The position numbers and the translations under genes were made by a program. The notes beneath the pieces are model-generated. The model was not told the DNA's origin. It saw nothing but the letters and a program-made list of their open reading frames with translations, and ran no database searches. This document shows, in pieces, positions 1,554 to 53,528 of a DNA stretch of 64,000 nucleotides; position 1 is the stretch's first letter; each line of letters starts with the position of its first letter. Source of the stretch: Eutreptiella sp. 'Long Island Sound 2002' (Eukaryota; Euglenozoa; Euglenophyceae; Eutreptiales; Eutreptiaceae); contig OZ038382.1 of NCBI GenBank assembly GCA_964036045.1, positions 73,518,687 to 73,582,686 on the forward strand. Reading direction: 5' to 3'.

Positions 1554-1741
1554 CCCTGCGTGCGCGCTACAGGGTATTGCCGCGCGATGGCTCAGTGCGC
1601 ACTACAAAACTATAGCGCGCAGCATAGCGCGCGCTATGGCTCGGGGTCTTGGGTTTGTAACCCCATGTCCTAATAAGCAGGCCAAAAACGCCTATTTTTC
1701 TAAAGTTTCAGATGCTTCCGGCACCGCATGTGACGCTGTCA

Positions 1742-2897
1742 ATGTCAGGAAAGATTGCCAGCATTTTGGGCCCCCACTATGGGTGGTCCCTGTGGAAGAA
1801 CGAGGACCTTTTGGCGGACGTACCTAGTTGAGTTTTTTTGCTCAGGGTCTGCCGTCCAACGGTCTTTGTGGGCCAAGTTGGAAAAAAGGGTCCCCGTGTC
1901 TGAAGCAGAGAAGAAGCGTCGCAGGACCGAGGCTGCCAACGCCGTCACACCCCTGTCGGTGGTGGACTTGGTCCTGCTCCTGAAGATTCCAAGAAGAAGG
2001 TATTATTGCGCGCGCTTTGCATGTGACATTGCGCGCACTTCCGCTCATAGCACGCGCTTCGTTGACTTCTGCGCGCGCTACGTCCTCATGTTGCGCGCGC
2101 TATTTTCCTCAGGTACAAAGATTTGATTACTTGGACGAGAAGTAAGGTCCCCACACACCTTTTTTCTCTCCCGTCCTATGCTAGTTTCGCCACAGAATGG
2201 AACCAGCTTGCAAGTAGGCAGCATTTACAGGTTGCCGTGCACACAGATGGGGTCACAGTCTTTTCGCAGTGGCCCGTGCAGCACTTTTTTGACTATATAT
2301 TTTCCTTTGATTCCATTGCTTCCACCCTCCAGGTCTGGTTGTCACATTGCACTACAGGGGACGGCAGAGCCAGATGGGGAAGAGACTTGGTGCCTTCTAA
2401 AGGTTTGGGAGGACCCGGCCCCCCTCCTTGGGGGTGACATGAGGATGCACACAGCAGTGGTTGCCATGTACATACTACTGGGGGACATGTATGGCACAAT
2501 GTTTGAAGAGGGTGCATTGCAGGCTCCAGAGGTTGCCCAGGCTTTCCAGAGGTGGGTTTGTCCAGCAATAAGATCACCTTATATTAACTGGATGTTGCAA
2601 GATGCTACAGTCACTATTCAGGCCATAAGGCCCTATGGCCTAGGAATGTTTTCGGGGGATCTTTTGGATGGGAGCAACAGGGTGCTGAAGGACATTTGGT
2701 CCTCCTTTTGTGATAGAGGTGGGGGGGCAGGAACCCTGGTGTCGCGCCGCATTAAGATGTTCAGGCAGGTTAATGAGCGCCTGTTCCTGTACTTTGAAGT
2801 ACCAAGGTGGAATGGGACCTCCAGAAGCAACCTGTGCAATGCACAAAAATTGGCTGACGACGTTCGGGCATATTTTGCGGATGATGAACTGTGGTAG
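1742..2897 (+). pseudogene. F1 transposase, frameshifted and internally deleted
   Basis: The start at 1742 (MSGKIA) matches the F3 copy (minus strand, near 25902). Compared with F3, F1 has four extra bases (GTAC) near 1827, which shift the frame. It also lacks roughly 640 bp: the exon jumps near 2332 from the FSFDSI region to the GCHIALQG region. F1 alone keeps the C-terminal 180 or so residues, which F3 has lost. That part includes a GMFSGDLLDGSNRVLKDI segment that could carry the last catalytic acid of a DDE enzyme, and it ends in ADDELW. An intron at 2000-2112 is clear. The family is probably a distant member of the D-D-E group seen in A, D and I; assignment is by eye and tentative. Confidence 0.65.
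2000..2112 (+). repeat. Intron of the F1 transposase filled with F-family motifs
   Basis: The donor is AAGAAG|GTATTA and the acceptor is TTTTCCTCAG|GTACAAAG. Splicing joins the two coding frames in phase 2. Within 113 bp there are five GCGCGC(A/G)CT-type words, the same motif found at the ends of F. The same intron occurs in F3 (about 25,537-25,649) and in the right arm (about 40,740-40,852). Confidence 0.8.
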
Positions 2898-3173
2898 CGC
2901 GCGCTATTTGTGTTTTAGCGCGCGCTACATGCTATTTAGTGCGCGCAATGACCACTATCGCGCGCGCTATGTTGTTTTCAAGCGCCGGAACCCTTGAAAT
3001 CGCGATATATAATTGGAAGTAGCGTGGTATGACTACGCACTTCAAATGTTATCAACATAATGCAAGCGTGCACAGCAGAGGCTCAACGGCTTAACAAAAG
3101 CATAAATCTGAAACATGGAGTATGTTCGATTTTCGCCAACACTAGATCAGACTTGCAATACAAACGTAAGTGT
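2898..3173 (+). other. F1 sequence downstream of the transposase, up to the A insertion
   Basis: Positions 2896-2990 hold four GCGCGCGCTA palindromes just after the transposase stop. The rest, about 180 bp, has no gene. It ends in GT at 3172-3173, the duplicated target of element A. Confidence 0.6.
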
Positions 3174-3556
3174 TGGGATGCAGCGTTCTAGGGCGTGGTG
3201 CGGAACCCCTAGTTAGAACGCAATTTCTGGAACACCCACCTACCCTTAATTTTGGGGCAAACCACCTAAAAAAATGGATTCAGCACCCTCAAAAACCCCC
3301 CATCCCCTTTCTTTCCCCACATAACCCTCATTGTAGGGGTGGTTTTTGGGGGGGGGGGGTCAAAGAGTTAGAGCACGGTTAGAACAGAGTTAGAACGCAG
3401 TTAGAGCACCCTGCTCTAACTAGTTATCGCGCTAGTTATCGCGCGATAACTCAGTTATCGCGTAGTTATCGCGGGTAGTTATCGCGCACCCCTCCTCCAT
3501 CCCTCACTAGGACAAACAACAGAAAACACTTGGCACAAAGCATGTATGGTCTTTTT
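3174..3556. repeat. A left terminal region with motif cluster
   Basis: The terminal inverted repeat is followed by a purine/pyrimidine-biased stretch, a run of Gs near 3350, repeated GTTAGAGCA/GTTAGAACG words (3365-3420), and six TTATCGCG sites (3423-3490). The same order is kept in B (39290-39672) and in the MITE C (30020-30326), which suggests that these sequences are enough for mobilisation in trans. No gene is present. Confidence 0.75.
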
Positions 3557-5215
3557 TCATACAAAGTCATCAATGTCTGAGGCCTTGGCTGCCTCCAGCC
3601 CCAAAAGCCCTTGCTCCAGGGCGTTCATGGACATGCAATGGTGCATGTGGCGGAGGGACATACTTGGCCTCACCAAGGACCAACCCTTAAAACAATTTTT
3701 GAGCCTCCTCTTGTAAGGCCCATGCCGATACTCCGTTGGGATGGAGGAAAACTGAAAAATGTTCCTCCATTTCTCGGCAAAAAAGGTGGAATGTGCCAAG
3801 CACCAATGGATCCACCTGGTGGGGGACCAACCTGAGTCTCCCCACGCTTTTGACAATTTTGTGGTCAACGCACGGTGGCGTTCCACTTGGGTTAGAGTGT
3901 ACAACTCCCTCACCCTCCAAAGCTCATACAAACCCTCAATGCATTTCACCATGACATGCACAACAACCCATAACATAGGTCCCCCAGGGGTCCTCACTGT
4001 GGGGACATGCTCTTTGAGGCATTCCACAAATTGCCTTTGGAAGGGGGGGGAGGGTAGGAAAACTTTGGTGCTGGTTAGATCGAAATCTTTTTCTGTGGCC
4101 CTCGAGGCCGAAGGGAGGCGTTCCCTAAGAGGGATGCCTGAGGTCTCATCCTTGAGGGCTTGTTTGAAGGCCTGCAAAGCTGCAAGAGCTTGGGCCTTAC
4201 CAGGGGTACCAGGGGGGAGGGCCTGAAGGGTGGTCTCAATGCGCTTTGCAATGCCGTTTAGGATGCGGCATGCTGCATGTTGGTAGTCCCCCGGCCGCCT
4301 ATCAGGGGTCACACTTCTCAAGAATGACCCCCATCTTGAGGTGGACTCCACCCCCCTTTGCTCAACAATCCCATTGGGGTCTTTGCACAACCAACACTTA
4401 GACCCAGCCCCCCCCATTGCTTGCATCCCCTTCCCATCCCCTGTCAAAATGACAGTGCAAGTCAAAAATTGGTTTTGAAAGAGGACAACGTCCTCTTCCA
4501 CATCCCTCACCTCTTGGTTGAGGTTGGCGGAGATGTCCAGGCTTCTCAAAAAAGCCTGTTCATCCCCGCCATCCATGCAAAACCATGAGGCCCATAGCTT
4601 CACCTTCGAAGCATATTTTGCCCCCCCCCATACATTAACCCATACATCCGCACGGGTAGAGGATGCCTTCCACAAGGAAGTCGCATCAACTGAAAGAACA
4701 ATAATGGCAACGCCACTAGGGGGGGGTTTCCCAATAACTCGGGCCATAGATATTGCATTTTGCACAATTGATTGCAAAGGCACATGGGCAGCTGCCCTAT
4801 TGCGGCCTGTGGTAGACTTTACAATGGTGGTTTGGGGAAAGTAGGGCATGATCCGTTGCCGAACGGTCCTTAGGTCCCGTTGTGTGCAACGGCGGGGCAT
4901 TCGCAAAAGGGCCCGTTCGGAGAGATGCATGCTGCATGCCATGCGTAGCATGCTCAGGGCCTCATGCTCCTGAGCTGTTAATGCAAGATGGCCGCCAAGT
5001 GGGCCAGACAGGGCAGTGCACGCCCCACCACTTAAACAAACTTCGCCTTTGGTGTTGGTGCCACACACGACGTCTCGGTCACCCAATAGAACTCGCACCA
5101 GCCGCTGAACCGCCTTCAAACGCCGCCGCCGGGCCTTGGGGCACTGCAGATCGGTGTACCGCCGCAGGTTGGCTGTGTTGAGAGCCCGCAGGGCCTCATT
5201 GACAGCATTGTCCAT
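3557..5215 (-). CDS. A transposase (D-D-CxxC-E family), intact
   Basis: The start was set at the first internal ATG (5215), giving about 552 residues; a longer open frame begins at 5278 inside what may be a 5' intron ending TTTCGCGCCCAG. Visible landmarks are D177 in VLSVDATSLWKAS, D260 in ILTGDGKG, C274 and C277 in the KCWLCKD motif, a DYQHAACRILNGI segment, and E495 in PTEYRHGPYKRRLK. The same landmarks, with the same 83-residue D-D spacing, occur in the I transposase, and the layout recurs in D1. This suggests an RNase-H-fold cut-and-paste transposase of KDZ or CACTA/Plavaka-like type; I cannot choose between them. B carries an almost identical copy. It probably acts on the TGGGATGC ends and the TTATCGCG clusters. 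Confidence 0.75.
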   Translation of the reverse strand: MDNAVNEALRALNTANLRRYTDLQCPKARRRRLKAVQRLVRVLLGDRDVVCGTNTKGEVCLSGGACTALSGPLGGHLALTAQEHEALSMLRMACSMHLSERALLRMPRRCTQRDLRTVRQRIMPYFPQTTIVKSTTGRNRAAAHVPLQSIVQNAISMARVIGKPPPSGVAIIVLSVDATSLWKASSTRADVWVNVWGGAKYASKVKLWASWFCMDGGDEQAFLRSLDISANLNQEVRDVEEDVVLFQNQFLTCTVILTGDGKGMQAMGGAGSKCWLCKDPNGIVEQRGVESTSRWGSFLRSVTPDRRPGDYQHAACRILNGIAKRIETTLQALPPGTPGKAQALAALQAFKQALKDETSGIPLRERLPSASRATEKDFDLTSTKVFLPSPPFQRQFVECLKEHVPTVRTPGGPMLWVVVHVMVKCIEGLYELWRVRELYTLTQVERHRALTTKLSKAWGDSGWSPTRWIHWCLAHSTFFAEKWRNIFQFSSIPTEYRHGPYKRRLKNCFKGWSLVRPSMSLRHMHHCMSMNALEQGLLGLEAAKASDIDDFV

Positions 5216-5612
5216 GAAGAATAAGAGGACCTGGGCGCGAAATGAGGGAGGGTTTTGAAGCAAGGGCCCAAAAAACACATGCGATAACCCACGCGATAAC
5301 CCCCGCGATAACTAGGTTATCGCGCGATAACCCCCGCGATAACCCCCCGCGATAACTAGTTAGAGCGCGATAACCCCCCGCGATAACTAGTTAGAGCACC
5401 CAGTTAGAGCGCGATAACCCCCGCGATAACTAGTTAGAGCAGGGGTTAGTGCGCACTAACTGGTGGTGTTAGAGCAAGCGTTGGGCACCCTAAAACCTTC
5501 ACAAACGTTGATATTGCACCCAGGAAACCTTGGAGATGTCAACAATGTGCAGGCACGGGGTACATGGCGCCACAATCACAAATTCAAATCAGTCAAATGG
5601 ACATGTTCCGGG
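5216..5612. repeat. Spacer between dioxygenase and transposase with TTATCGCG cluster
   Basis: About 180 bp (5280-5460) consist of GCGATAACC, CGCGATAACTAGTTAGAGC and related words, including the palindrome TTATCGCGCGATAA. It lies just upstream of the transposase start and may hold its promoter or a 5' intron. From 5461 to 5612 nothing is recognised. Confidence 0.6.
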
Positions 5613-6323
5613 CTAGTTGCCCCTCCTCAGAGTCCACAGAGTACAGTAATAGAAATAGTGAACAATAATCGAATCACAAATAACACTAGCTGGAGGGGTT
5701 AGAGGAAGCATTGGGCACCCTAAAACCCATGGACAGCAGCTGCTGCCGCCACACAGGCGTGCAGTGCAGAACCCCCCCCCCGCACTATAAAAAATCACGC
5801 TCCATCGCTCGCCCTCCCATGGCAATGGAGCGTGTAGTGCCCTGGTGTTGAACAACACCGGGGCTTGGGGGGTGGCGGTGCATGCCCAACCCTCCACCAC
5901 CCTACCCTTGCACACACGGGTGTGCCGCTTTTTTTCCCTCAAGGAGGGATTCAGCAGGCCACCACTCTCCACCCAAAACTCACCCCCCGTGAAAGACCCC
6001 ACACACACAATAAGCGCCATGGGCGCCCCATCCCGCAAATGGGAGTGGAGGCCCATGGTGTCCGTCCCTTGGGGGCGAACAATTTGGATGCTACACCATG
6101 TGAACCATGGTGGAGCATTGGAGGTGCAATACCCATTGAGGTCTGCTACCAAGGGGGTGAGGGCAGGCCTGAGGGTAGCAGCGGCCATGTGGGTCGCCCT
6201 AAAATTAGAGGGGTTGGGGTTTCCACTTCCCACGAGGCCAAAGTGGCACATGTCCACTTGGGCCCCATATCGCTCCTCCCCACGAAAAATGCCCTTGGGC
6301 AACCCCTTGAGAAAATCCACTAG
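5613..6323 (-). CDS. Second 2OG/Fe(II) oxygenase domain of A, in frame after a UGA
   Basis: The domain reads in the same frame as the coiled-coil part upstream, immediately after TGA (6326-6324) and CTA. An independent start would be GTG at 6320. Family marks are a GLHSHLRD segment (iron-binding H and D, with one extra residue against the HKHQD of the E homologue), FTGGEFWVE, and RALHAPLPWEGERWSVIFY with the distal H and the 2OG-binding R. It resembles TET/JBP-like small oxygenases, which oxidise methylated bases, but the substrate is unknown. The left copy has a 10-C run near 5772 where the right copy has 8, so its last 40 or so residues are frameshifted. The right copy (36530-37161) is the better version. 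Confidence 0.72.
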   Translation of the reverse strand, partial: LVDFLKGLPKGIFRGEERYGAQVDMCHFGLVGSGNPNPSNFRATHMAAATLRPALTPLVADLNGYCTSNAPPWFTWCSIQIVRPQGTDTMGLHSHLRDGAPMALIVCVGSFTGGEFWVESGGLLNPSLREKKRHTRVCKGRVVEGWACTATPQAPVLFNTRALHAPLPWEGERWSVIFYSAGGGFCTARLCGGSSCCPWVLGCPMLPLTPPASVICDSIIVHYFYYCTLWTLRRGN

Positions 6324-7946
6324 TCATTGGCTCCCACTCCTACTCCCGCTACCCTGACTCTGCAACCCTTGCGGCGCCAGCCCCTGCTGGGCCTGCTGCG
6401 CCCCGAAGGAGGCACAGAGGGTGGAGGTGAGGCTGCGCACCTGCGCCTCAGCCACCCCCAAGCGCTGCCCAAGGTCATACCCCTCCTCCGCTGCCCCTCC
6501 ACCTCCACCCTAAGCTGGGCCACCTCCACCTCCGCCTTCCGCCTCCCCTCCTGGGCCTCCCTCAGGGCCTCCCTCATCGCCTCCACCTCCTCCCCCCTCT
6601 TGGCGGCCAGGTTGAGGGCCTGGTCCAGGGCACGCTGGGTGTTGCCCTGGGCCTTTTCGGCCTTTGCCAAGGCCGACTTGTGGTCGGCCGACCGACCCTT
6701 GGCCAGTGCGGCCTCGACCCCCGTGGCGGCCGCCTGCTCCACCAAAACCTGGCAAGCGTCCGTCACGTGGGTGGCCACACTGGCCCCCAAGGCCCCCACG
6801 TCCAGGGCCTCATGGGGGGGCTGGGCTGCCGCCACCTTTGCCACCTTCGATGGCTTGGGGGAGGGCTTGGGGGCGGGGGTTTGGCCCTTACCCCTAAGGG
6901 GGGGGGGGGCATCCGGCTCAACCACCACCACGTCTGGTCCCCGCTTCGTCTGGCCTTTTCCCGGCCTCCCCCCCTTGGGTGCATACTGCCGAACCCAATC
7001 GGCAGTGGCGTCCACCACAGAAGGGGGGGGGTCATACCCACCAACCTGGTGGATGTCCCCCCCCCTGTGCAGCTTCTGCCACACTTCCCTCCCCGTATAC
7101 TCCCCCTCCCACAAAAAACACACCCTCAAAAGGAAATAAGATTTCCTTTGGGGGGGGTCGCTCATCCCAAACAAACACAAAAAAGCCGCAACCGTTTCCC
7201 CCTCTGCGGCTTGCGGCCACTTGGCCGTTTCCCCCCCAACCCACACATAGGAGGGGAGGGTGAGGTTGGTCTTCCTCTCCACCCCCCCCTCCTTCTCTGT
7301 GATGGTGACCTGCCGGTACCATCCCGTCCCCCCCATCCTGCAAGCCTCATCCCCAAGCTCCCCAAACCGCCACGACGCCCCCTCCGGCAGCCTCTTCTCC
7401 CCCTCCAGCTCCAACCGGGCCGCCACCGGCTTGGCGGGCCGTGCCCCCGCTGCTTCTGCCGCTCCGCCTGCTGCGTCGGCTGCCTGGGCGTCGTCCTTGA
7501 CGAAGATGCGGGGCAGCTGCAAGATGGTAGCCTGAAAAAAACAAAAGAAACAAAAAAAAAACACGCGATAACCCGCGCGATAACCCCCGCGATAACTAGG
7601 TTATCGCGCGATAACCCCCGCGATAACCCCCCGCGATAACCCCGCGATAACTAGTTAGAACGCGATAACCTAGCGCGATAACTAGTTAGAGCACCTAGTT
7701 AGAACGCGATAACCTAGCGCGATAACTAGTTAGAGCAGGGGTTAGAGCAGGGTGTTGTGGGAAGTTTTCACACCTGGTGACATGGACACATGCCTTGGCC
7801 CTCCTTCTTGGCGTCGTCCAGCACCAGGCCCAGCCTCCGCAGCCACACGAAGTCCGTGACGGCCGCATACTCCCCCACCTGCCGCCACTCCACCACCTGG
7901 GCCACCCCCTCCTGCTCAGGGGCCACCCTTGCCACTCCCCCATACA
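6324..7946 (-). CDS. A accessory protein: middle domain and coiled coil (3' exons of the composite gene)
   Basis: One exon (7946-7774) ends in CPCHQ and is spliced in phase 0 over 7773-7532 to the next (7531-6324), which begins ATILQLPRIFVKDD. The middle has a VWVGGETAKWPQ...FLWEGEYTGREVWQKLHRG segment I do not recognise. It is followed by a basic/proline-rich linker and then a long heptad-rich coiled coil (about 6850-6440). A one-base deletion near 6481 shifts the frame compared with B, where the coiled coil runs on to GSRSGSQ and TGA. The 5' continuation of this exon lies beyond D1 at 14961. This is probably a nuclear oligomeric partner of the fused oxygenases; its function is inferred only from architecture. 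Confidence 0.6.
7532..7773 (-). repeat. Intron of the A composite gene filled with A-family motifs
   Basis: The donor is CACCAG|GTGTGAAAAC and the acceptor is TTTTTTTCAG|GCTACC, and both exons keep frame (phase 0). About 185 of the 242 bases are TTATCGCG, TTATCGCGCGATAA and CTAACTAGTTATCGCG words, identical to those at the ends of the element. Confidence 0.85.
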
Positions 7947-8408
7947 TGTACCCTTCGTGAACGGCCGTTAAGTGGCCGTTTGAATAATTGCGTGAATTTC
8001 ACGTGAATTTACCCAAAATTTGAGGTTTTTGGGGGAAAATGCCATATTCTTGGTTCATTTCAAGGGCTTTGAGGGGCCAAAATTCCTCCCCTAGCTTTGT
8101 TACGCATCATCCAATGAAAGTCCCGCCCCAAAAGCATGCATCATGCCCGCACCGTGCCCAAAACGAGAGGTGCCGGAACCCGGCAAGCCTGTAGCCGATT
8201 CACAGCCGTGAATTCACGTGAATTCACGTGAAATTCGTACGAATTTCGTACGAATTTCGTACGAATTTCACGTGAATTCACGTGAATTCACGTGAATTTA
8301 CACAAATGTTACCCGTGTGCACCCCCTGATTTGTCCTCACACCCCTAGTAAGCCCCCCAGCATGCACCCCGGTCACAGGCAACAATGGTCTGGGTTCGTA
8401 AGGTCATC
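7947..8408. repeat. D1 left terminal region
   Basis: The terminal repeat is followed by CGTGAATTTCACG words and, at about 8210-8310, a cluster of ACGTGAATTCACGTG and AAATTCGTACGAATTT palindromes. The rest matches 1-388 and 42458-42898 at roughly 90%. No gene is present. Confidence 0.7.
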
Positions 8409-10173
8409 TCATGTCCGTCTCTTGCGGCACCGGAACCGCCGCTGTAGAGTCTGAAGGTGCTGCATGTCGGTTAGAAGCCGTCTTCTTGTGCGGCTTGCAT
8501 ACGTTTGTACACTTATGGGCCCTTGCCCATGTTGAGCCCTTTTGGTCGCATCCCACCCATGCAACCAAAGGCTATCGTCAATGGTGTGGTTGTCCACAAC
8601 CACTTGCACCCCTAGTCTCCCCCGGAGGAGGCTTAGGCCCCCGCTGTTGCGCAACATGCGCTTCAGCCTCCGGTGACTTCCCTCCATGGCAAAGCAGGAG
8701 AACTTTGACAAGATTCTCCACTTCTTTGCAAAATAATACATGTGGTCGATCCAAAGATGCGTCCACAGAAGTTTGCCCCACTGGAGCTCATTGTGGGCAG
8801 CGCCCATGGCTATGCTATGGTTCCGGAGCCGCCCCAAGTCGGCCCCGGAGAACCATGCGGAACGCCACGCGTATACACACATGCTTGCAAAATTCTCCCA
8901 CCACGTTTTGCACACCGACTCCCAAATTTTTTCCCCCTACTTGATGCTGCCTGACACTAGGCTGCTCTAGGCAAGCATCTATTATCTTCTCCCAACCCTT
9001 ATTGCGCATGAAATGGATGGCAGCAGCACACTCCATCCTCACCTTCCCCTTGCTGTTTGCCTTGTCATTATTTAATGAGGCACGGCTGCAAGTTCGTGCA
9101 GCAAGCCGTGCCTCATCTAAAACCGGTTGCAGCATGGTGCGTGCCACAGTGGCCGGTGCATTCCCTGTCAATTGTACAACTAGGTCCCGTGTCCCGTTGA
9201 CTGCACACAACAGGACACGAAGGACCCCATGGAGGCCATAATCAGGCACTCGCCTATCACTCATAATGGTCCTATATATAGCACTTATGGCAACGGCTGG
9301 TTCCCAGTTGCCGTCTATCGCACTTGCTGTGCCAAAGGTAGCAAGGCACAGAGCACGGTTACGCATGCAGACCCAACACACAGTGGCACCAGGGGATTCG
9401 ACCTTCCAGTTTTGGCAGCCGGCCATGAGCACCTGTGCCTTACCATCTGCACACAGAAAAAAAAGGGACTGCCTATCGGTCCGTGCCGTATCCTTAAAAC
9501 TTACGGTTGCGGCCTTGCGCAACTCATCATCAAAATCAATTTCCTGGGAGGCCGCGTAGAGGGTGTCCCACTTTTCACTGCCCCCTAGTAGCCACCAACT
9601 AGATAGTTGGTTGGGGCTGGCGGTGCCACCAAGCGTGCAATGGACGTACGAGGCCTCATGCCTCGATGTACCGTCCACCGCAATAGGCAACCAATGCAGC
9701 CGTCGGTCCCCGGGCTGCATGATGGCCGAGGGTGGTGGTGGTCGACACTTGAATAGGTGGGCGATGCGGTCAGGTAGGTAGCAGGCCGCACCATTGATGG
9801 CCGTGTCGTCACCCGTATAGGCAGTAAACGCCCGGGACTCCGGCAACGCTAGCTGCCGGAGCATGCCGTACACCTGGTCCCATACCACACCGTACGTCAT
9901 GCTCCCCACCAGGTACCGGGACTCTGTCCTAGAGAGGTGCAATGACCGGATCCTCCACACGGCCATAATCAACCTCTCCTCCTGGGTGGGCTCGGGCTGG
10001 ACGGTGGTTACAATTCTTGTTTCGGGGGTGAGCACTATTTGCCCCGTGTCGGGCAGGTACTTGACCGTGTAGGGTGCTGCAAGCTCCTTGGAAACAACCT
10101 CCTGGAGCTCTTGTACGCGCCGCCTGCGTGTACGATCCGCTACCAGATGGAATGGCTCCTTGGGCCGTGGCAT
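8409..10173 (-). pseudogene. D1 transposase with one frameshift
   Basis: The start is ATG 10173 (MPRPKEP). D167 lies in PIAVDGTSRHEAS, D243 in FLCADGKAQVLMAG, C266 and C269 in TVCWVCM, followed by PDYGLHGVLRVLL. The frame changes near 8930 (GGGGGAAAAAATTTGGG), and the last 168 residues follow in another frame with THLWIDHMYYFAKKW and the acidic residue in CFAMEGSHRRLKRML. The order of landmarks equals that of the A and I transposases. The C-terminus is strongly basic. A one-base shift in a homopolymer stretch could be a sequencing error or real decay. Confidence 0.72.
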
Positions 10174-10838
10174 GATGTGAGATACAGGACCTGTTGAATG
10201 GGCAGGCAGTCATGGCAAAGTTTGTACCATCCCCCTGCCGCAGACCACTCTCTCTACTGTGATTCGCATGCAATTAAAAGAAATTCACATAGATTCGCAC
10301 GAAATTCGTACGAAATTCGTACGAATTTCGTACGAATTTCGTACGAATTTCACATGAATAGAAATGTGTGAATATTTTGAAAATGTGAAATTCGTACGAA
10401 ATTCGTACGAAATTCGTACGAATTTCGTACGAATTTCGTACGAATTTCGTGCGAATTTCACATGACTGTCACAGAATTTCTGCCAAAGCCTCATCCTTGT
10501 GCCCTCGTTGACCCTCACAAAGCAAGCTCAGGATGGTGCTCATGCTGTCATTGTCATTGTCATTGTCTCATGTTGTCATTCCGGCTGTCACTCAGCCAGC
10601 AGTGTAATATACAAACAGTTCCGCAGAAAGGAATCGCAAATTAACAGGTTAACAGGTTAACAGGTCAGGGGGCACATCAGGTCAGGGGGTAATGTACAAA
10701 CAGTGCTGCAGAAAATTTCGCACAGTGGGGGGGGAGTACCCCACATATCGGTCAAACTGCCCATGCTTGGGGGGGCAGGATAACATTCGTCGTGGTTAGA
10801 AAGGCGTGGTTAGAAAGGACAGGTGCTCCGGAGGGTAC
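10174..10838. repeat. D1 spacer between accessory gene and transposase
   Basis: Two clusters of TTCGTACGAA palindromes (10290-10345 and 10388-10460) flank an ACATGAATAGAAATGTGTG core. Further on there is a TGTCATTGTCATTGTCA repeat (10548-10578) and GGTTAACA and GGTCAGGGGG repeats (10645-10690). It probably contains the transposase promoter. No gene is visible. Confidence 0.6.
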
Positions 10839-12352
10839 CTACACACCCCCCCCCCCGGGAGCAGAGCTCCGGCTAGCGGAGCCCTGGGAGCTCTGCTCCG
10901 CCACCGCCTCCACAAAGGAGGGGTCCATGGCCGCCGACGTGAGGCGGTGGGGGGGGTACTGCCGGCGCACATCCTCCATTGCGGCAGTCACCTTGGGGGC
11001 GTCCGGGGCAACGTTGTCCACATTGACCTGCTGGCCACTGGCCATCATGGCCATCCGCAGGCCGGTGGACACTGCGGACACCTGGCCGGCGCATGCCTCG
11101 GCCTGGGCATGCCAGGCCTGTGCGCCGGCCAGGAGGTACCGGACACCGGCAGCACTGGCCCCCCCCCTGTCACCCGGGGGGGCGGGGGCCTCGGCACCCT
11201 CAGCCCTCTCCACTGCCTCTGCTGGCTGTGCCGCTGGCTTTGCCTTGCGCAACGTCGCCACGTCACGCTCCAGGGTCTTCACCTTGGTGGCCAGCCGGTC
11301 ACGCTCCCTGGTGACGTCCGCCAACCGCGACTCGCAGTCCCGCCTGTCCTCGTTGGCCCTGGACAGACGGGCCTCGAGGTCGCGGTTGGCGGCCTCCGCG
11401 CTGATGGCGCGTGCCTCCCACGCCCCCGCCCGCTGCTGGTCCACCAACTCCTGCACCCCCCCGCTCTGCCCCCGCCCCCCCGACGGCTCCGCTTGCTCCG
11501 CCCGCCCTGCCCGCTCCCCCGGGGTGGCCGTACGCGGGGCTTTGGGGGGGGGGGGGGGGCCGTGTCCCCTTCGGGGCGCCCTTTCCGCTTGCGCGTGGGG
11601 GGGGGTTCGTCCTCCTCGACGTCAATGACGTCAGCCACCACCCCCATCTTCCGCTGCCTCCCCACATGGACGCGCATGGCAACCCATGCCACGTCCACCC
11701 ACTCCGGCCTCCGCTGCTCCCAACCCGTGAGCACATTCAGCCCACAAATCCCTGCCGTCGTCACCATCCCCCCCTCCCCGATCCCCGACACCCCCGTCTG
11801 CACCCGCCAGTGCCCACTCACAAGCCGGTAGGCAAACATGCCCACCAGCTCCTGCCCCGCAGGCAGGTTGGACCCCCCCCGGAGCACAATGGGGCAGGGG
11901 AAGGAGATGCGGAGGGTGCCCTGCACCCCCCGCGACTCCAACTCCATGTCCCACACGGCACTGAGGTGCCGCTGCCGCCCATCCGGCCCGGGCGGCACCT
12001 GCTGGGTCAAGGCCGGATCCGGCTGCCTGGCGGCCAGGGTGACCCGGTCCAGGGGGGGGTCGGTGTGGGCCTCGCCCAGCTCGTCGCGGGACGGGTGGGG
12101 CACCACCACCTCGCGCGCCATATGCCCCCTGGCGGTGCTGGCCTCGCTGCCTCCCGAACGCCGAGAGCGCTGCGACCCCACACTGCGCACGCTGCCGGCC
12201 TCGCTTGGTGCCCGTCCACCGCCGGTGCCTGCGGGCTGGGCGCCACCGGGGCCTTCGGCGGGCTCGGCGTGCTCCTCAGGCAATCGGGGCCGGGGCTTGT
12301 ACTGGCGCCTGGTGTGGTGCCGAATATCCGGCGACCAAGCGGTGAACGGGAC
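10839..12352 (-). CDS. D1 coiled-coil accessory part of the dioxygenase gene
   Basis: It follows the intron in phase 0, beginning VPFTAWSPDIRHH. An acidic/glycine-rich stretch leads to a domain with ISFPCPIVLRGGSNLPAGQELVGM and WVDVAWVAMRVHVG segments, then a basic TRKRKGRPEG linker (nuclear-type signal), then a coiled coil (about 11450-11220, RDLEARLSRANEDRRDCE). A short C-terminal helical domain ends at 10839. The frame changes between 11450 and 11560, where there are several 7-12 base C runs, so the gene is either frameshifted or mis-sequenced there. It plays the same structural role as the accessory protein of A. I see no enzymatic motif in it. Confidence 0.6.
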
Positions 12353-14958: not shown

Positions 14959-14960
14959 CA

Positions 14961-17294: not shown

Positions 17295-17462
17295 GTGCGT
17301 ATCTCCATGCCTCCATGCCTCCATGCCTCCAATTTGAAATGCATTGAGAGACACAGAGATTTGTTCCTTTTCGTCCGTTTTTTTTGGTGATTTCGATTTT
17401 TTTGTTACTGCATTTTCCTCTTTGTATTACTGCTGGAACAGGGGTACTTTAATGTAACCCTC

Positions 17463-42365: not shown

Positions 42366-42457
42366 TGACATCGGGGGAGGGGTCGAGGGAGGCTGCCCAG
42401 CCCACGATGTCATCTACCCCCAGTGCCCCCGACTCGTACGTCGCCTCCTCCAATTGA

Positions 42458-46199: not shown

Positions 46200-47968
46200 C
46201 TAAGGCGCGTTGGCCTTCCAATACGTTTTGTGTTCCTTCACGTGTGCTTGCTGTGTCCATGCACGCACCCATACATCCCACCCCCTCTTTAACAAACCCC
46301 AATCCAGATTATCATTTTTTACAACTTCCCTCCACCCTTTCACGAAAACTCGCCTCACCAGTCTACCTCTCCGTCCCCGTACCCCCCCTTTTACTTTCCT
46401 TGCCCCCCCCTTGAAGCTCCTAAACCGAATCTCTGTTTTCATAGTCTTGTGCCTTTCTTCTGCCTTGAAGGCAGCAAAGGCGCCAAGGGCATGCCACTGC
46501 TTAGCATACCCAAGCATGTGGTCAACCCAAAGGTGCACCCACAAGGTTTACCCCAGTTGGCACCTTTTGTGATGCACTGCCATTTGGGGTAGCACATTTT
46601 TTAGGGCGTCAATCTCTTGGGCTCCTAACAGCCCCTCCTTTTTGGCAATGGTTGCACTTTTGTGCAGACAGTCCCACCACGAATCAAAATTTTGCGCCCA
46701 AGTGTGACCCCCTTCCACGACATGTTGCAAGAGACCTTCATTGTTCAGCCCTACAATGAGGGGACCCCAGGCCTTTGTCGAAACAAATAGAATTGCTGCG
46801 CTCTGTTCACAACGGAGTGACGGTTTGTCACCCGCCTGCCCTGCGATGTCTTGCGGTGCAACACTGTGTGAGGCAACCCTGCAAGGATTTACATGGGTCT
46901 GCACCCATGTAATAGCGCGTCTCTTCGTGAAGCGATGGTGCTGTACAAGAGCCCTCCAGCATCCATCAAGGCCACTGTGGGTTACACGTGTGACCCCATG
47001 CAATGCATAGTCAGGAGGCCTGTACTTGGGCACAATGCTACGTAGCACCTGCCCGTACCAGGTCCAGTGTGACAGAATGGGTGAAAGTCCCTTTCCAAAG
47101 TCGCGATCGCAATGTGCCCTGCATTTGCCGCATACCCAGCACACTGGGTCCTCACTGGTGCAGTTCCATCTTTTGATGCCTGCCATTGCCTGTTGTGCCA
47201 CGACATCTGCAACCAGGAAAATATGGGGTTTTTCCATGTAACCCCCTTGTACCTCATACCTTGTGTTTAGGGCCTCTTGCACCTGCTCATCCATTTTGCT
47301 AACCCTTGTGAGCGATCGTAGCACAGCACGTTTTTCAGAGCCGTGCAAAATGCACCAGCTACCAAGCGGGTTGCCCGATCCAAGCACGCCAAGCATAAAA
47401 TGCTCGAAGTGCCGCTTGTGTAGTTGTGTGCCATCCACACATAGCCGTACCCATAGGTCCGGGTACAAATTTCCCTTACGGGCGGCCATCATGAGTCCTA
47501 GCTTCTCCCTCAAATTTGTACCGGCCCCCAGCAATGCGTGGTCCCCGTCCATGCACTGTCGCACCCATGTTGCTCAGACCCTATTACATGTGACTGAAGA
47601 GTTGGTGCTTTGCTGTGCCCTGTGACTTAGTTCTCATTGTAGTCCACTACTGGTGGTGCACTAAGATCCTCCTTCACACGTCTCATTTCATCAAGGGGGC
47701 ATTTGATTCTGGACGTGGGGATGGAGTACTGGAGGGCCCGCCAGCTTTTGCCCTCTTTGCGGCAATCCCACAGGAGGGCCTCGGCATGCCACATGTGGTT
47801 TTTGGGCATGGGCCCTTCCGTCGTTTTCAAAATGAGGGTGCCCACGTTTTCGCCAGCTTGCACTTGCCAGGTTGGGCCAAGAATTTCTGTGACTGCCGTT
47901 TGCAGTTCGGCCATCCGTTCCCATCTCTTAGTCCTTCCCAGCTGTTGGTACTCCTTGAACGGGGGCAT
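46200..47968 (-). pseudogene. Third D-D-CxxC-E transposase, broken
   Basis: It begins MPPFKEYQQLGRTKRW at 47968, similar in style to the D1 start MPRPKEP. A TAA at 47629 ends the first part. The main frame (47564-46548) holds D in LCVDGTQLHKRH, the second D in FLVADVVAQQAMAG, and CWVCGKC, then PPDYALHGVTRV. A second TAA lies at about 46546. In frame after it come TLWVHLWVDHMLGYAKQW and the acidic FKAEERHKTMKTEI. The family is the same as A, D1 and I. It is closest in layout to D1 and may be the transposase of the D copy that begins at 42458. Confidence 0.68.
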
Positions 47969-48469
47969 GTTCCTTGAGGGGAAAAAAAAAAAAACCTAGG
48001 GAAAGAGAACAGGGGGGGGGGGTGCATGGACACAACAAGCTTCACACGTACAGGCAACATGCAACACGTACGTCTGCGCGTACGAGCCGCGTACGCGTTC
48101 CATTCTTAATGTGTACGTTCCACAACACAAAATCGTACGTTTCATGAACCCAACGCGTACGCGCCAGAACAGCGAATCGTACGCGTCATGACCCCAGCGC
48201 GTACGCGCCAACACAGCAATGCGTACGATGCAACACCGTAACGCGTACGCACCACGTACGCCAGCGCGTACGCGCCCCTGCCACAACGCGCGCGTGTTGA
48301 CCCACACTTCACCCATCGATCATTAATGCACAATGCATGCACATGCTACCCGGCACACAGCTGGAACCCAAGACTGCGCAGCAGCACGAGGTCCTCCCAG
48401 GACACCTTGCCAAGACCGACCTGGGTAAATGTTCCCACCCGTATTCTTGCCCAATTAACTCAGAATCAT
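47969..48469. repeat. E left region with GCGTACGCG repeats
   Basis: From 48057 to 48290 about a dozen GTACG words stand as GCGTACGCG, CGTACG or ACGCGTACGC. At 48348-48420 the minus strand reads KVSWEDLVLLRSLGFQL, like the end of the A oxygenase, and is probably the last exon of the E oxygenase gene beyond element I. AT at 48468-48469 is the duplicated target of I. Confidence 0.6.
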
Positions 48470-48633
48470 ACACTTGAACTGTCATTTTTGGCGCATTTTC
48501 CAAAAACTGCAGTTGTTTTTTTGGCGTTGATTCTTACACTTGAGCTGTTTTTTTTTTGGCGTGCGCGTGTAGGTGAGCATGCGCACAAATATACTCACGT
48601 GCATGCACATCACAAGGGAACGGTACATCACAA

Positions 48634-50277
48634 CTACTCTGATGCATTGCGGTCCTTGGTTTGTTGTCGAACATATTTCACAAATTCATCCCACATTGCA
48701 GAGCCATATTTCTTAGGAACATGGAATGATCTCCCCACAAGAGGCACTTGTAGTTTGAGTAGAGACCAAGTTGCAATACTATATTGGATGACCGTCTCAA
48801 AGCCACACTTTGCCCCCTTCCATTGCCCATGAGTAGATAGTTTAATCTCAGCCTTCAAGTCTCGCCAACGGCCTTCAAAGCCATGGCAAAGGAAAGGCTC
48901 AAGGGTACCCCATCTGCGCAAAAACTGTGGCACATGGCACGTCCACACATGCATCCATGGAGTGCATGGCGCATCCAACGCGTGCAACACCTTTCGCAAT
49001 GAAGTAGCCGCGTCACATGCACCAAAAATGTCCTCAGCACTCGGCTTAGGCTTATATGCAACACGAAGCATACGGTGTGTCAAAGTGAACATTGACATGA
49101 CAAGGTCCGCGGTTTCAACGTCGCGGTTATCAATGCGAGTTACTGTTTTGCAATGTTGACGCATCATATCAACAATAGGATTATATAGACGCTTCTCATA
49201 GAATTTCAGAGCATTGCTGATAGACCGCGGTAGAGCAGCACCATCATCATCACCACTGGTTAATGCGACAATGTCCACGTCAATCCCTGCAATGAAACGG
49301 TCTACTGCTGCTTTGGGAAGGCCTGCATCTTCGAGAATCTTTGCAACTAGTGGAATCTGCACAGTGAAGAGGACATTGACAATGCCATGTGAACAGTCAA
49401 TGGCGTATTGATCAATCGGTATGGTGGGAAACATTGCTGTGCCAGACGCCGCCATTGCAGGGCAAGGGATAATGTAGGAAGCCACGTCATCCGGTGTCGC
49501 ATCGCAACACGGGCAGGGTCTGCGTTCCGGTCGCGTGCATGATGGAGGGTCACGGCCTGCAATCTTGTACATCAGCATGTGGTCACCGCATAGGAAGACG
49601 CGGACGGTGTATTGTTTACCCTGGATGAAAACTGTGGATCCGTCTAGTTTTTGCACATCCTCAACCACTTTACAATGTCGTAACATCTCAGCCACCACCT
49701 CTTTTGATTCGGTGCCGCGCAATAGACAAAAAACGAAGTGCCGATGGGGGCTTTGCATGGGTAGGGACCGTAGGTGTGCGCACGGTGCCATAGTGCAAGC
49801 CACAACATGTGCTTTCCATAGAGGTACCCCATCCAGCCCAACCCTGATCCACAGTTCCCCCGCTCGTTGAGGATCAGGTTGAACCCACTCACTACCAGCG
49901 GACAGTGCATCACACATCAATGTGAAGGCAGCCAATAGCGAACACCATGCAACCGGAAGGGACTGTTGAATAAGTGCACTGAAGGTGGCAACTGTTGTTG
50001 TCAACCAGAACCACACAGCCTCCACGCAATCCCATCGTACGCGACGGTCAACATTGTCGCGGATACGCTCTGCACTAGTCTTCAAAGCTAGCCGTAGGCG
50101 ACAAAGATTAATGCATTCATCCCAAATCACCTCTCTTTGCATTGTGTTTGTTTTTGGTACCTTGTTGTGCAGCTCGATCTTCTCCTCATCCCACTGCGTC
50201 ACACTCCAGTCTCCACCCCATGCTTCCTCTGCTATGTCTCTCAAAGCACGCTTTTGGCTGCGCTCAGTGCTGGGCAT
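48634..50277 (-). CDS. I transposase (D-D-CxxC-E family), intact
   Basis: ATG 50277 (MPSTERSQKRALRD) was chosen; the frame is open further upstream. Of about 547 residues, D149 lies in RVGLDGVPLWKAH, D232 in FLCGDHMLMYK, a CPCC cluster at 255-258, D294/H297 in YAIDCSHGIVN, and E468 in FEGRWRDLKAE. The D-D spacing of 83 equals that of the A enzyme. This supports a common fold, with the cysteines probably forming a zinc site inside it. Its start codon abuts the start codon of the divergent gene (CATATG). Confidence 0.75.
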   Translation of the reverse strand: MPSTERSQKRALRDIAEEAWGGDWSVTQWDEEKIELHNKVPKTNTMQREVIWDECINLCRLRLALKTSAERIRDNVDRRVRWDCVEAVWFWLTTTVATFSALIQQSLPVAWCSLLAAFTLMCDALSAGSEWVQPDPQRAGELWIRVGLDGVPLWKAHVVACTMAPCAHLRSLPMQSPHRHFVFCLLRGTESKEVVAEMLRHCKVVEDVQKLDGSTVFIQGKQYTVRVFLCGDHMLMYKIAGRDPPSCTRPERRPCPCCDATPDDVASYIIPCPAMAASGTAMFPTIPIDQYAIDCSHGIVNVLFTVQIPLVAKILEDAGLPKAAVDRFIAGIDVDIVALTSGDDDGAALPRSISNALKFYEKRLYNPIVDMMRQHCKTVTRIDNRDVETADLVMSMFTLTHRMLRVAYKPKPSAEDIFGACDAATSLRKVLHALDAPCTPWMHVWTCHVPQFLRRWGTLEPFLCHGFEGRWRDLKAEIKLSTHGQWKGAKCGFETVIQYSIATWSLLKLQVPLVGRSFHVPKKYGSAMWDEFVKYVRQQTKDRNASE

Positions 50278-52835
50278 ATGTCTGTGATCTCTGCGAAAGA
50301 GGGACGATGGCAAGACCCGGCGGGCCTGTGGAGTGAATGGTGTCCCGTGGTGTCGGAGCAGAAAGATTCTGTGCTGGGTACGCTGCTGTACACGTTCCAG
50401 ACTACATCTGGTTCCACAGTGCAACATCCGGAGAACAAGTCTTGTAAGGTTGTAAGGTTGAGCTCCGAAATGCTGGTGTGTAATTCACCTCTGTTGTGTG
50501 CATTGTCATGTGTTCACGAGAGGCCAGCCGGTTTCATGGTGGCATCAGTCAACCTTGTATGTAACATTTCTGTGGCCGCTTTTTTTGACGCTTTTTTTGA
50601 CGCTTTTTTTGGCGCTTTTTTTGACGCTTTTTTGGCGCTTTTTTTTAAGCTTTTTTGGTCGGTTTCTTCACATTTCGGGGTATGGTGGAACGTGTTGTTG
50701 CTGTTGTTGCTCACGCAGCACAGTGCTGTGACATCATGGTTTATCGTAGGGCATTTCCTAGGGAACCAAACCGCTGTGTATTTGACTTTTCAAGCGGTTT
50801 TTGTGGCGCTTGTTTTGACGCTTTTTTTGACGCTTTTTTTGACGCTTTTTTTGACGCTTTTTTTGACGCTTTTTTGGACGCTTTTTTTGACACTGTTTCG
50901 TGTTGTCCCTTGCTCCCCTGTGGCGTTGTGCCTTTCCTACTCCTTTTGCTCCGTCTCTCGCAGAAGAGTCACAACCAACACCAGCAGTGATAGCGGAGCC
51001 CGCGGATGCGAACACCGTTCAAGAGGACGTCGAACAAGCGGAAGCGGCTGGGGATGCGGATCCAGACCTTGACCGCGCTTTTTTTGACACTGTTTGACAC
51101 ATGCATTTTCAGGTTTGCCTGCACCCCTATACAAGAGCAAGTCACCCCCTGCCGCACATGTTCCTCTGCCAATGGCAAAAGAGAAGGGTAAGCCCAATGC
51201 CAAGGCCCCCACTCAACCATCCAGCACCGCGGAGACCGTTGGCTCGCAAAGGAGCAAAGCCCGGGTGAACGACGCTGTGGCCTTGAACACTGTCCTCCCA
51301 GGCGATGATGGGTGGTACCGCCTGAGTGACGACGTCCAGGTCCTGCCCGTCCACTCAGAGAGGATTGCCATGGACGGAGGCACCCACTACAACCGCACGG
51401 TGGTGATTGCACCGAAGGGTTCCCGTGCCCAGCGGGCCACCCTACAGCTGCCCCGCTTGGCACTTTTGGCGAATGACGGGCAAGAGGAGGAAGTGTTGCT
51501 GTGCGCCATCCACTCAAAGGGGAGACACAATGTTGTGGCCGTCCGGGAACAGGTCATGATAACATCTCCCCCGCCTCGATCATGCCCCCTCCCCCCTATT
51601 TCGTCGTTAGTCGTTGCGCCTCCATTGTACTATCATATTCTGTTGCGCAGGCGAAAGATCGTTGTTGGGCTTATATCCGGCCGTTTGGATCGCAAGCATT
51701 GCGGAAGATCACGGCGATCTCGTCACATACGCCAAAGCGGGGATCGTCTTTGCTCCGAGTGGGCGAATATGCGGCAAAGGTAGCCTGTCCGTCGTCGTGA
51801 ATTTCCTCAGCATTGCCGCGCCTCCTGCCACCGTCTACTCCTATGCGTTGCCTGTCCCAGGTGTTCGTCAAGGCAAACGGCCGGCCGCGGCCCACAGTGA
51901 CGGTGGCAGAAGCGAAGTGCGTGAGTGATGACGAGAGCGACGGAGCAAGCCGGACCAGTTCGGAGAGCCCGAGGAAGGTCCACAAGAAATTGGACAAGAA
52001 GCGGGAGCGATCCGGCACACCACGTGCCACAGGTATTTGTATGTGCTGCTCACAGACCCCCCCCCCCCCAACTATAGCACCATGGGGTGGAGTGGTGCCA
52101 TAAACTAAGGCTCGATGCAGCATGCTTGCTGTCGTTTTTGGCGCTTTTTTTGACGCTTTTTTTGACGCTTTTTTTGACGCTTTTTTTGACGCTTTTTTTG
52201 ACGCTTTTTTTGACGCTTTTTTCGACACTGTTTAGGCACCTTTTTCAACCGTCATGGGCATGGCACCCCCCCCCCCCCCTGGCTTGAGGTAAGAGGGAAG
52301 TCAGATGAACCGGGGCGCGTGGCCTGTCACCCGTGGCCACTGTGATGTGTTCTCAGGCAAGCGGAAGGCGCACAATGCGGGGAGTGGCTATGTGTCGGAG
52401 GAGAGCTTGGCCAGTTCAGTGCCCTCTTCAGCCAGTACTGCAGCCCTGCATGCTGAGTTGAAGGCAATGAAGGCCCGTCTCGATGGATTTGAAGCGGCGG
52501 GCCCCCAACCAGTCTTTCCCCCACAGTCAAGCGGGAATTCTATGAAGTCGGACGACAAGCTCGTCGCGGAGTTAAAGCACGTTCGCGACGAGCTTGAGCA
52601 AGAGCGCACGCGGCGCCGCCGGGCAGAATCTACTGTTGGGTTGTTGGGTTTGCAGCTCATGGTTGTGGGATTGGTTGGTGATGTTAAGAAGGATGCATGT
52701 GTGTTGCCTCGGGCACAGGTGCAAGAGCAGTGGCGGATCTCATTTGGTAGTGAGATGTCCGCAGAGGATTGGACCTCTTGGGAGCGGTTGTTGCCGCAGT
52801 GCTTGAGGTCCAAGGAGAACGACGTGTCTCCTTGA
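50278..52835 (+). CDS. I accessory gene: multi-exon, coiled coil, ends in a UGA before SET
   Basis: Exon 1 (50278-50556) starts MSVISAKEGRWQDPAGLWSE. Middle exons are less sure: about 50968-51075, about 51110-51560 (DGWYRLSDDVQVLPVH...QRATLQLPRLALL, possibly a small barrel or BAH-like domain) and about 51650-51780. The last two are clear: up to 52032 (RKVHKKLDKKRERSG) and, across intron 52033-52356 in phase 1, 52357-52835, with a coiled coil (ELKHVRDELEQERTRRRR) and SFGSEMSAEDWTSWERLL. TGA-CGG ends it, and the SET domain follows in frame. Basic, helical character and neighbours match the accessory proteins of A, D and F. Confidence 0.58.
50578..50652 (+). repeat. T7-GACGC array, first intron of the I gene
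   Basis: Five or six 12-bp units GCTTTTTTTGAC (some with GGC instead of GAC) follow the donor AACCTT|GTATGT. Confidence 0.8.
50800..50896 (+). repeat. T7-GACGC array, second block
   Basis: Seven or eight units of GCTTTTTTTGAC in perfect 12-bp register, likely in the next intron, since an acceptor-like TCTCGCAG stands at 50960. Confidence 0.8.
52033..52356 (+). repeat. Last intron of the I gene with T7-GACGC array
   Basis: The donor is GCCACAG|GTATTTG and the acceptor is TGTTCTCAG|GCAAGC, in phase 1. Within it, 52130-52230 has eight 12-bp units of GCTTTTTTTGAC. C runs stand at 52056 and 52267. Confidence 0.82.
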
Positions 52836-53306
52836 CGGGACGCACCACCCCTTGCAGCACCTAGTGTCACCAGCGGTGCACCCCTTCTTGAGGGTGTGCA
52901 TGTCCGTGTCGGGCCAAGTACTGTAGGGGCTGGTGACGGTGTTTTTACATTATGCAATTTGCCTGCTCTGCCCGGTGGTTTGAGATTAACTGAATACCAC
53001 GGCAAGATGTTAGAAGGTCACGTGCGTGAGTTGTTTCCAGCAGGCCACACATCAGGTTATGTTTTGCAGATTCGTGCGGATCTAGGCCTTGGTGGACTAT
53101 ACGTGGATGGGGAACACTCGTCTCATTGGTCCGCCAAGGTGCAGCACGGCAGGACAGGCGCCGGCCGCCTCAGGCTATATGTGCACCGAGGTGCCGGATG
53201 GCTACGCACTCTGGGACAAGCGATCCCAGCCGGCACTGAATTGACGACGGACTACGGGTCCGAGTTTTGGACTGGTCCCTTCAGGGGACTTGTTGCTCAA
53301 CGTTGA
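52836..53306 (+). CDS. SET-domain protein, in frame after UGA
   Basis: The frame is open from the codon after TGA (52833-52835) to 53306, about 156 residues, so it can be made as a C-terminal extension of the I accessory protein. An internal start is GTG 52896; no ATG with good context precedes the domain. SET marks are GAGDGVFTLCNLP (first strand), LRLTEYHGKML, GLYVDGEHSSHWSAK (in place of the usual NHS region), and AIPAGTELTTDYGSEFW (the ELTxDY end). A full cofactor set is likely but the NHxC motif is weak. SET enzymes methylate lysines, mostly of histones, so the element may mark chromatin. The stretch 52836-52895 has no intron signals. Confidence 0.72.
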   Translation, partial: RDAPPLAAPSVTSGAPLLEGVHVRVGPSTVGAGDGVFTLCNLPALPGGLRLTEYHGKMLEGHVRELFPAGHTSGYVLQIRADLGLGGLYVDGEHSSHWSAKVQHGRTGAGRLRLYVHRGAGWLRTLGQAIPAGTELTTDYGSEFWTGPFRGLVAQR

Positions 53307-53377
53307 CAAATGGGGATTTGCTTTGCTATTGCATGTGCATGGTGACCAACAAGGATGTGTGCAACCCACATGCATAT

Positions 53378-53411
<34 letters not shown>

Positions 53412-53528
53412 GCACGCGCACATGTGTACACACACGCGCGCTTTTTCGCACAAGCAAGTGTGTTGTTTACGCGCATAAAAATGCACACGTATGCGTAAAA
53501 AAAGCGACAAAAAGAACAGCTCAAGTGT
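53307..53528. repeat. I right end with CA repeat
   Basis: (CA)n at 53378-53408 is followed by GCGCACATGTGTACACACACGC and GCGTAAAAAAAGCGACAAAA words. The latter are inverse T7-GGCGC motifs, as at the left end. The terminus is at 53528. Confidence 0.65.

Follow-up and report, generated by a model that had tools for sequence, protein, structure and literature searches.

Family-private motif arrays in introns, promoters and flanks of nested Eutreptiella transposons: candidates for sequence-based self-recognition

Nested transposons with their own motif arrays

A stretch of 64,000 nucleotides from the euglenophyte Eutreptiella sp. 'Long Island Sound 2002' (assembly GCA_964036045.1, contig OZ038382.1, positions 73,518,687 to 73,582,686), here called the window, is a nest of transposons: element D lies inside the accessory gene of element A, A inside element F, and element I inside element H, and a piggyBac-like element is also present. 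Each of these six families has a private short word that is arrayed in its noncoding compartments, introns among them. An earlier note on this DNA had described five of the motif sets, which were all found, and had overlooked the sixth family, H, with the word CGTACGC. On balance we lean towards reading the arrays as self-recognition sites comparable to those of the VANC/VANDAL system of Arabidopsis. Introns are throughout predicted from the sequence by their GT..AG borders, which by eye lie where the earlier note had placed them, and are presumed to be spliced; splice junctions were also read out for D and for further copies of A (locus L026) and H (loci L027-L029). Coordinates of all features are given in Table 1.

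Distribution and family specificity of the motifs

Exact motif cores were counted on both strands in each compartment of the own element, with limits of the coding sequences (CDS) that were, as in the comparisons of words and copies below, drawn by hand and approximate. The introns held 12 cores in 242 base pairs (bp) in A, 9 in 307 bp in D, 15 in 475 bp in F (four introns pooled), 12 in 309 bp in the piggyBac-like element and 6 in 324 bp in I, and no core of another family was found in the introns of these five elements by this count. The description of the F introns as packed with the motif fits the 15 pooled GCGCGC cores and fails for the intron at 17628-17749, which has degenerate relatives only. 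No core was present in the CDS of A (5626 bp), D (5198 bp), F (3574 bp), piggyBac (2017 bp), I (3616 bp) or H (2848 bp). Since this is near chance for such words, the exons, said before to be free of the motif, are better called not enriched than depleted.

Arrays were also located upstream of the transposase gene, upstream of the accessory gene and 3' of the transposase gene. The 5' regions contained 20 cores in A, 13 in D, 6 + 13 in piggyBac, 7 in I and 14 + 13 in H. With as many cores in these regions, introns are one compartment among several and not the special site for which they had been taken. Similarly, the expression 'terminal motif' suits F, with 4 + 4 cores at its ends, and piggyBac, with 12 near its ends, and does not suit the other three elements so described: the outermost approximately 200 bp of A and D and the end regions of I hold no core.

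Family specificity was supported by a test chosen so as not to depend on the motifs described earlier. Every 8-mer repeated at least three times in the introns of a family was taken, low-complexity words excluded, with H represented by the copy in L028. Outside the introns, the noncoding DNA of the own element contained these words 221 (A), 217 (D), 45 (F), 88 (piggyBac), 50 (I) and 42 (H) times, and its exons contained them 0, 0, 2, 1, 1 and 1 times, respectively. In any other element they were found at most 5 times in noncoding DNA and at most 4 times in exons, so that a diagonal of own-element matches resulted for six out of six families.

Counts in unrelated sequence, which the earlier note had proposed, support genome-wide exclusivity of the words of A and D. 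In the 15,233 bp of the window outside the elements the A core occurred once, GCGCGC of F 9 times and the piggyBac core 4 times, and those of D, I and H were absent. Genome-wide (2.28 gigabases), 5970 sites of an A 14-mer compared with 0 for its reversed control, and 3118 sites of a D 16-mer with 0 for the control. One 22-mer of H gave 113 exact hits. The A 14-mers are tied to A: 56 of 57 adjoin unique A sequence in loci L005-L030, most of which were fetched for holding A or H sequence.

Conservation, copying and spacing

Slippage and gene conversion could have generated the arrays, which would then have been kept wherever coding constraint is absent, without any protein reader. We regard such neutral spread as possible, if rather unlikely. 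It agrees with the presence of arrays in nearly every noncoding compartment, with the commonness of repeats in this genome, and with the likeness of array blocks inside one element, which reaches 90-96% between intron and upstream blocks of A, D and I. The A intron is 92-95% identical to two promoter blocks, and the intron in the window is 87.7% identical to the array at 5281-5445; in the L005 copy the intron block matches the block upstream of the transposase gene at 92% over 159 bp and that upstream of the accessory gene at 92% over 146 bp. The D intron array corresponds to the array upstream of the transposase gene on the opposite strand (90% over 166 bp), and the I intron array to the intergenic array (96% over 99 bp). 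Weaker or shorter matches were found in H (53-93 bp at 79-82%), piggyBac (up to 156 bp at 81%, intron versus intergenic block) and F (up to 73 bp at 73-100%). The near identity of the blocks within A, within D and within I shows that copying inside elements does occur.

The conservation of the motif in A speaks against neutral spread. This was assessed on 19 copies with the motif defined on the majority sequence; matches below 260 bp and copies beyond three per locus were excluded. Non-CpG motif bases were substituted at 1.28%, compared to 2.50% in array spacers and 2.06% in other noncoding DNA. The ratio to pooled spacer and noncoding sequence was 0.60 (bootstrap over copies 0.26-0.87). Motif CpGs had changed about half as often as CpGs elsewhere in noncoding DNA, namely at 1.97% versus 3.91% in other noncoding sequence and 4.55% in CDS (ratio to pooled noncoding 0.47, bootstrap 0.32-0.65). 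For D, two further copies were compared, matches below 300 bp being excluded, with the motif defined on one copy and hence biased: 0 out of 153 motif bases of the intron differed versus 13 out of 426 other intron bases, and 5 out of 287 versus 76 out of 2639 in other noncoding DNA.

The spacing in H also speaks against neutral spread. Here 61 of 76 neighbour pairs less than 80 bp apart are spaced 22 or 44 bp (18 of 22, 25 of 32 and 18 of 22 in three copies), although the 16-bp spacers are only 38-62% identical in eight of nine arrays and 94% identical in one array of two units. A fixed spacing with diverged spacers is not predicted by slippage alone. No helical rule common to all families was found; A and piggyBac have no clear period, and that of I is 12 bp. 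Finally, the motif is missing from the outermost ends of A, D and I, which are noncoding as well.

Subterminal transposase-binding sites are classical in Ac and Spm. If the arrays were sites of this type, serving excision and insertion, the internal copies would be decoys or titration sites. In line with this, A and D have arrays at a distance of about 180-280 bp from either end, and in F and piggyBac the motif lies at or near the ends. Such a role is nonetheless improbable in view of the motif-free ends of A, D and I and of intron arrays that are as dense as the flank arrays and should not be needed for transposition. Still less probable is a purely structural role, in which alternating purine-pyrimidine CpG words (GCGCGC, CGTACGCG, CGTACG) would favour Z-DNA or exclude nucleosomes, opening promoters without a dedicated protein. 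The words of A, D, F and H do contain CpG and alternating cores, and H has a period of 11 bp, but GGTAAC of piggyBac and TTTTTTTGACGC of I do not fit, and family specificity would not be expected.

Transposase kinship and one intron position with three motifs

Homology connects the transposases of A, D, H and I (E 2e-7 for A-D, 1e-29 for D-H, 2e-6 for I-D and 4e-6 for I-H). Hence the families of the earlier note, which include A, D and I, do not represent five independent ones. The main transposase open reading frames (ORFs) of these four elements matched no Pfam family at E 0.1, nor did they have a Pfam match when considered as candidates for the KDZ transposase domain. F is left unassigned. 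Searching the A transposase against viral contigs gave no match, with records of the own genome possibly excluded from the search. The assignment of the piggyBac-like element was confirmed by a Pfam match of its transposase to DDE_Tnp_1_7 (E 2.3e-20); a TTAA target duplication was not seen by eye at its 19-bp inverted repeats, the element ends being uncertain.

Fuller copies of H allowed its accessory gene to be compared with those of A and D. In three of the four H loci fetched (L027-L029) this gene has an intron with 6-7 CGTACGC-type sites; the fourth, L026, is an H copy interrupted by an A. The three copies carry an array at the accessory promoter, and those in L027 and L028 a further array upstream of the transposase gene; no transposase ORF was seen in L029. 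The introns are bordered by GAG/GTATG and TTGCAG/TTG in H, by CACCAG/GTGTG and CAG/GCCACC in A (L026), and by TGCAAG/GTGTGC and GCAG/GTCCCG in D (slash, splice site). All are phase-0 introns placed immediately after a cysteine-rich CxC stretch. Downstream of the intron, A and H have an exon that looks coiled-coil-like by eye and then a C-terminal domain common to both (E 1e-22, 33.5% identity over 179 columns). The motif inside the intron is wholly different among A, D and H, and in each case agrees with the promoters of the own family.

Exon 1 of D and H showed a weak local profile match over the HxD stretch (probability 1%; BLASTP E 0.003). Shuffle tests on the last part of exon 1 gave local p values of 0.04 (A-H), 0.07 (H-D) and 0.81 (A-D) and global p values of 0.33, 0.03 and 0.72, respectively. 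As the similarity of the flanking exons is only marginal, we speak of the same architectural position and probably the same intron, on the grounds of gene order, of the homology of the transposases, of the match between the C-terminal domains of A and H, and of phase and location after the CxC stretch rather than of alignment. Three motifs at one intron position, each matching the promoters, speak for a turnover of the motif across compartments and against an origin of the introns from element ends.

Introners are introns related to mobile-element sequence, and the introns described here resemble them in this respect and in sharing sequence with the flank arrays. An origin from terminal fragments of the own element, which the earlier note had considered, is nevertheless rejected as hardly credible, since no motif is present at the termini of A, D and I, and A, D and H share an intron position while their motifs differ; moreover, the A intron matched only other arrays among the self-BLAST matches listed (score >150), no terminal repeats were seen at the splice sites, and no intron was found to be bounded by element ends or a target duplication.

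Accessory proteins

The C-terminal domains of the A and H accessory proteins have HxD-like, GGEF and H..R elements in common, as judged by eye, and 3 of 35 alignment members matched PhyH at E 1. A dioxygenase-like effector function of the accessory protein of A, D and H is a weakly supported suggestion. A sequence search against solved structures with three proteins left two without a match at E 1 and yielded weak Tudor-domain matches for one. Three accessory queries had 14, 71 and 87 protein relatives, all from the source 'ena'.

In the accessory genes of A and H one in-frame UGA separates the coiled-coil-like exon from the downstream dioxygenase-like domain. It is located at 6324-6326 (-) and 36524-36526 (+) of the window and was also present in L005, L006, L007, L008, L009 and L026. 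All 8 A copies found by the junction word GGGAGCCAA, two of which are duplicated window arms, read CAA TGA CTA, and H reads AGT TGA CTC in L028 with the same frame layout in L029. UGA-CUA is a leaky readthrough context, and programmed readthrough is possible in these genes. The accessory gene of I at 52836-53306 (+) has a SET-like end by eye and no Pfam match at E 0.1.

Further features of the window

Table 1. Elements, genes, predicted introns and motif arrays in the window
Feature	Position	Strand	Remarks
Element F1	1554..20704	+	parts 1554-3173 and 17296-20704, A inserted between; self-BLAST and CCCTGYGTGCGCGC ends
F gene 1 intron	2000..2112	+	GCGCGC array
F gene 2 intron	17628..17749	+	degenerate motif only: GCGCGT/GTGCGC variants, no exact GCGCGC
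F gene 2 intron	18526..18650	+	GCGCGC array
F gene 2 intron	19248..19362	+	three window copies compared
Element A	3174..17295	-	parts 3174-7946 and 14958-17295, D inserted between; uninterrupted in locus L005 (779-7880), 3-bp overlap at D insertion site
A array 3' of transposase	3405..3486	.	6 cores
A transposase CDS	3557..5215	-	within 584-amino-acid stop-to-stop ORF; homologous to D transposase
A array upstream of transposase	5281..5445	.	part of 20 cores in A 5' regions
A accessory gene	5688..16907	-	exon 1 = 14958-16907 and 7774-7946 (split by D); exon 2 about 5688-7531
A accessory-gene intron	7532..7773	-	GT..AG; 12 cores; CGCGATAA array about 7556-7745
A array upstream of accessory gene	16962..17117	.	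self-BLAST and core count
Element D	7947..14957	-	in A accessory gene; limits set by comparison with the uninterrupted L005 copy of A
D array 3' of transposase	8230..8290	.	3 cores
D array upstream of transposase	10293..10460	.	core count and self-BLAST
D accessory-gene intron	12353..12659	-	TTCGTACGAA array; GT..AG; 9 cores
D array upstream of accessory gene	14640..14690	.	core count
piggyBac-like element	30424..34411	+	ends uncertain; DDE_Tnp_1_7 E 2e-20; 19-bp inverted repeat CATATTCCTTTATCTAGGG by eye
piggyBac accessory-gene intron	31135..31443	+	GGTAAC array, 12 cores
piggyBac intergenic array	31947..32569	.	13 cores
H transposase	46548..47977	-	frameshifted; homologous to D transposase, E 1e-29
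H array (CGTACGC) upstream of transposase	48060..48290	.	14 cores in 47978-48429
Element I	48430..53570	.	inserted in H; inverted ends GTTCCCACCCGTATT by eye; its transposase is a homologue of those of D and H
I array between genes or in first intron	50580..50890	+	7 cores
I accessory-gene intron	52033..52356	+	TTTTTTTGACGC array, 6 cores
H accessory gene	53521..55062	-	internal deletion in window, without the intron; more complete in L027-L029
H array upstream of accessory gene	55100..55300	.	13 cores in 54998-55320

Exon 1 of the A accessory gene is open through 718 codons in L026, and a second D copy, in locus L031, is 97.2% identical to the window D over its length. Overlapping divergent ATGs at 50274-50279 (CATATG) may start the I transposase and a candidate first exon of the accessory gene, as judged by eye. 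An ORF at 34392-35099 (-) with a chromodomain (Pfam, E 1.7e-12) ends inside the right inverted repeat of the piggyBac-like element. A tandem CACAGCAACCCCCCAGGAATT-like array at 45600-45960, 3' of the ORF 44281-45228, may mark a further, seventh family with a private word. An inverted copy of bases 1-6532 occupies 36317-42845 (99.3% identity, self-BLAST); the duplication may be a real rearrangement or a fold-back of the assembly.

Comparison with known systems

The VANC-type protein domain is DUF1985, and the VANC/VANDAL anti-silencing system of Arabidopsis was reportedly described by Fu in 2013. According to the sections of the literature drawn on here, a 9-base motif that forms arrays in noncoding DNA of VANDAL elements is bound by VANC21, which induces loss of methylation (PMC5735166, PMC10398659). 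Motif arrays are situated in the introns of VANB21 and VANC21 and upstream of VANA21 (Hosaka 2017, PMC5735166), and VANC6 has motifs other than those of VANC21 (PMC5735166; Sasaki 2023, PMC10398659). The arrangement found in Eutreptiella is therefore known in kind, as intron and promoter arrays have been published for VANDAL. As far as these sections show, both systems have short, family-specific motifs in tandem in their noncoding DNA, introns of element genes among it; in both, exon probes lack the motif, related families differ in their motifs and arrays turn over rapidly. In contrast to VANDAL, no MULE transposase (VANA) match was obtained in Pfam, a piggyBac-like and a Pfam-unmatched group taking its place, and the accessory ORFs scanned had no VANC-type Pfam match. 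Furthermore, the words are mostly palindromic with CpG, and at least two superfamilies are involved in one genome. Motif binding and methylation loss belong to VANC21; for the Eutreptiella elements they are predictions. No report of such arrays outside VANDAL was found in the literature searched, which did not cover most subscription journals. Novel features are the transposase groups concerned, the occurrence in a piggyBac-like element, words that are for the most part palindromic with CpG, the constant distance between sites in H and the presence of six such families in one genome.

Fungi contain DNA transposons that carry TET/JBP genes; how specifically these choose their targets is open, and it was speculated that some transposon-encoded enzymes act without target specificity (Kojima 2025, PMC12730594). 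The elements studied here resemble them as DNA transposons with an accessory gene possibly of the 2-oxoglutarate dioxygenase kind, as suggested by the C-terminal match of A and H. They differ in having no Pfam Tet_JBP match and a fold that is putative, and in their motif arrays, which are not described for the fungal elements in the sections of PMC12730594 drawn on here. The SET-like end of the I accessory gene recalls HarbingerS, the SET-domain DNA transposons to which PMC12730594 refers; unlike these, the I accessory gene has no Pfam SET match at E 0.1 and the I transposase no Pfam family.

A possible self-recognition mechanism and its implications

By a modest preference, we interpret the arrays as serving self-recognition in the manner of VANC/VANDAL, with a factor encoded by the element as reader and with at least two unrelated transposase groups involved. 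Each family carries a private short word, in most cases palindromic and with CpG, that is arrayed in promoters, 3' flanks and accessory-gene introns. These arrays may be bound by a factor of the element itself, for which the accessory protein is the likeliest candidate, and the palindromic words suggest a homodimer as reader. Once bound, the factor would keep the promoters and the gene body of the element open, which amounts to sequence-specific anti-silencing of the VANC type. Introns would be used because, together with promoters and flanks, they are element DNA free of coding constraint. The motifs would turn over jointly across compartments, partly because blocks of an array are copied within an element. 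A possible effector in A, D and H is the dioxygenase-like accessory protein. The earlier suggestion of self-recognition depots for a DNA-binding or base-modifying protein is consistent with the family-specific diagonal, the motif conservation, the H spacing and the VANC precedent; binding and modification by the reader are its inferred part.

Several observations count against this mechanism. Copying inside elements explains part of the pattern, and the H spacers retain some likeness. The conservation in A is overstated when the motif is defined on one copy instead of on the majority, and the 19 copies are mostly partial, two of them being near-identical arms of one duplication. Outside the intron, motif bases of D vary at the same rate as CDS (1.74% in both), and in F 0 of 8 intron motif bases differ per comparison among three copies, too few for a test. 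Profile comparison of exon 1 between A and H with hhalign was not significant. The PhyH matches of A exon 1 (E 0.005) and of its homologue P0087 (E 0.017) fell below the cut-off, Tet_JBP of Pfam matched none of the 38, 35 and 12 partly overlapping members scanned, and the AlphaFold models, with a mean predicted local distance difference test score of 40.4 for the A C-terminal domain and 36.6 for A exon 1, were not used. Because of the low-confidence models and the missing Tet_JBP match, the dioxygenase role is a lead only. Since the accessory proteins of F, piggyBac and I are unlike those of A, D and H, one mechanism for all six families is an extrapolation.

Sequence-addressed anti-silencing has been described for a plant transposon group, VANDAL, in the sections drawn on here (PMC5735166, PMC10398659). 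A further-reaching and doubtful proposal would regard the arrays as an address code for self-directed DNA demethylation, with an accessory protein erasing silencing on its own family only, that evolved several times independently of plant VANC. Several unrelated superfamilies would then use such a code, the reader being a dioxygenase in A, D and H and other chromatin enzymes elsewhere. If the arrays act alike in a piggyBac-like family and in a Pfam-unmatched superfamily with differing accessory genes, self-addressing would be a recurrent strategy of transposons. If true, this would provide a targeting rule for transposon-encoded chromatin enzymes, the specificity of which is open according to the sections drawn on here (PMC12730594).

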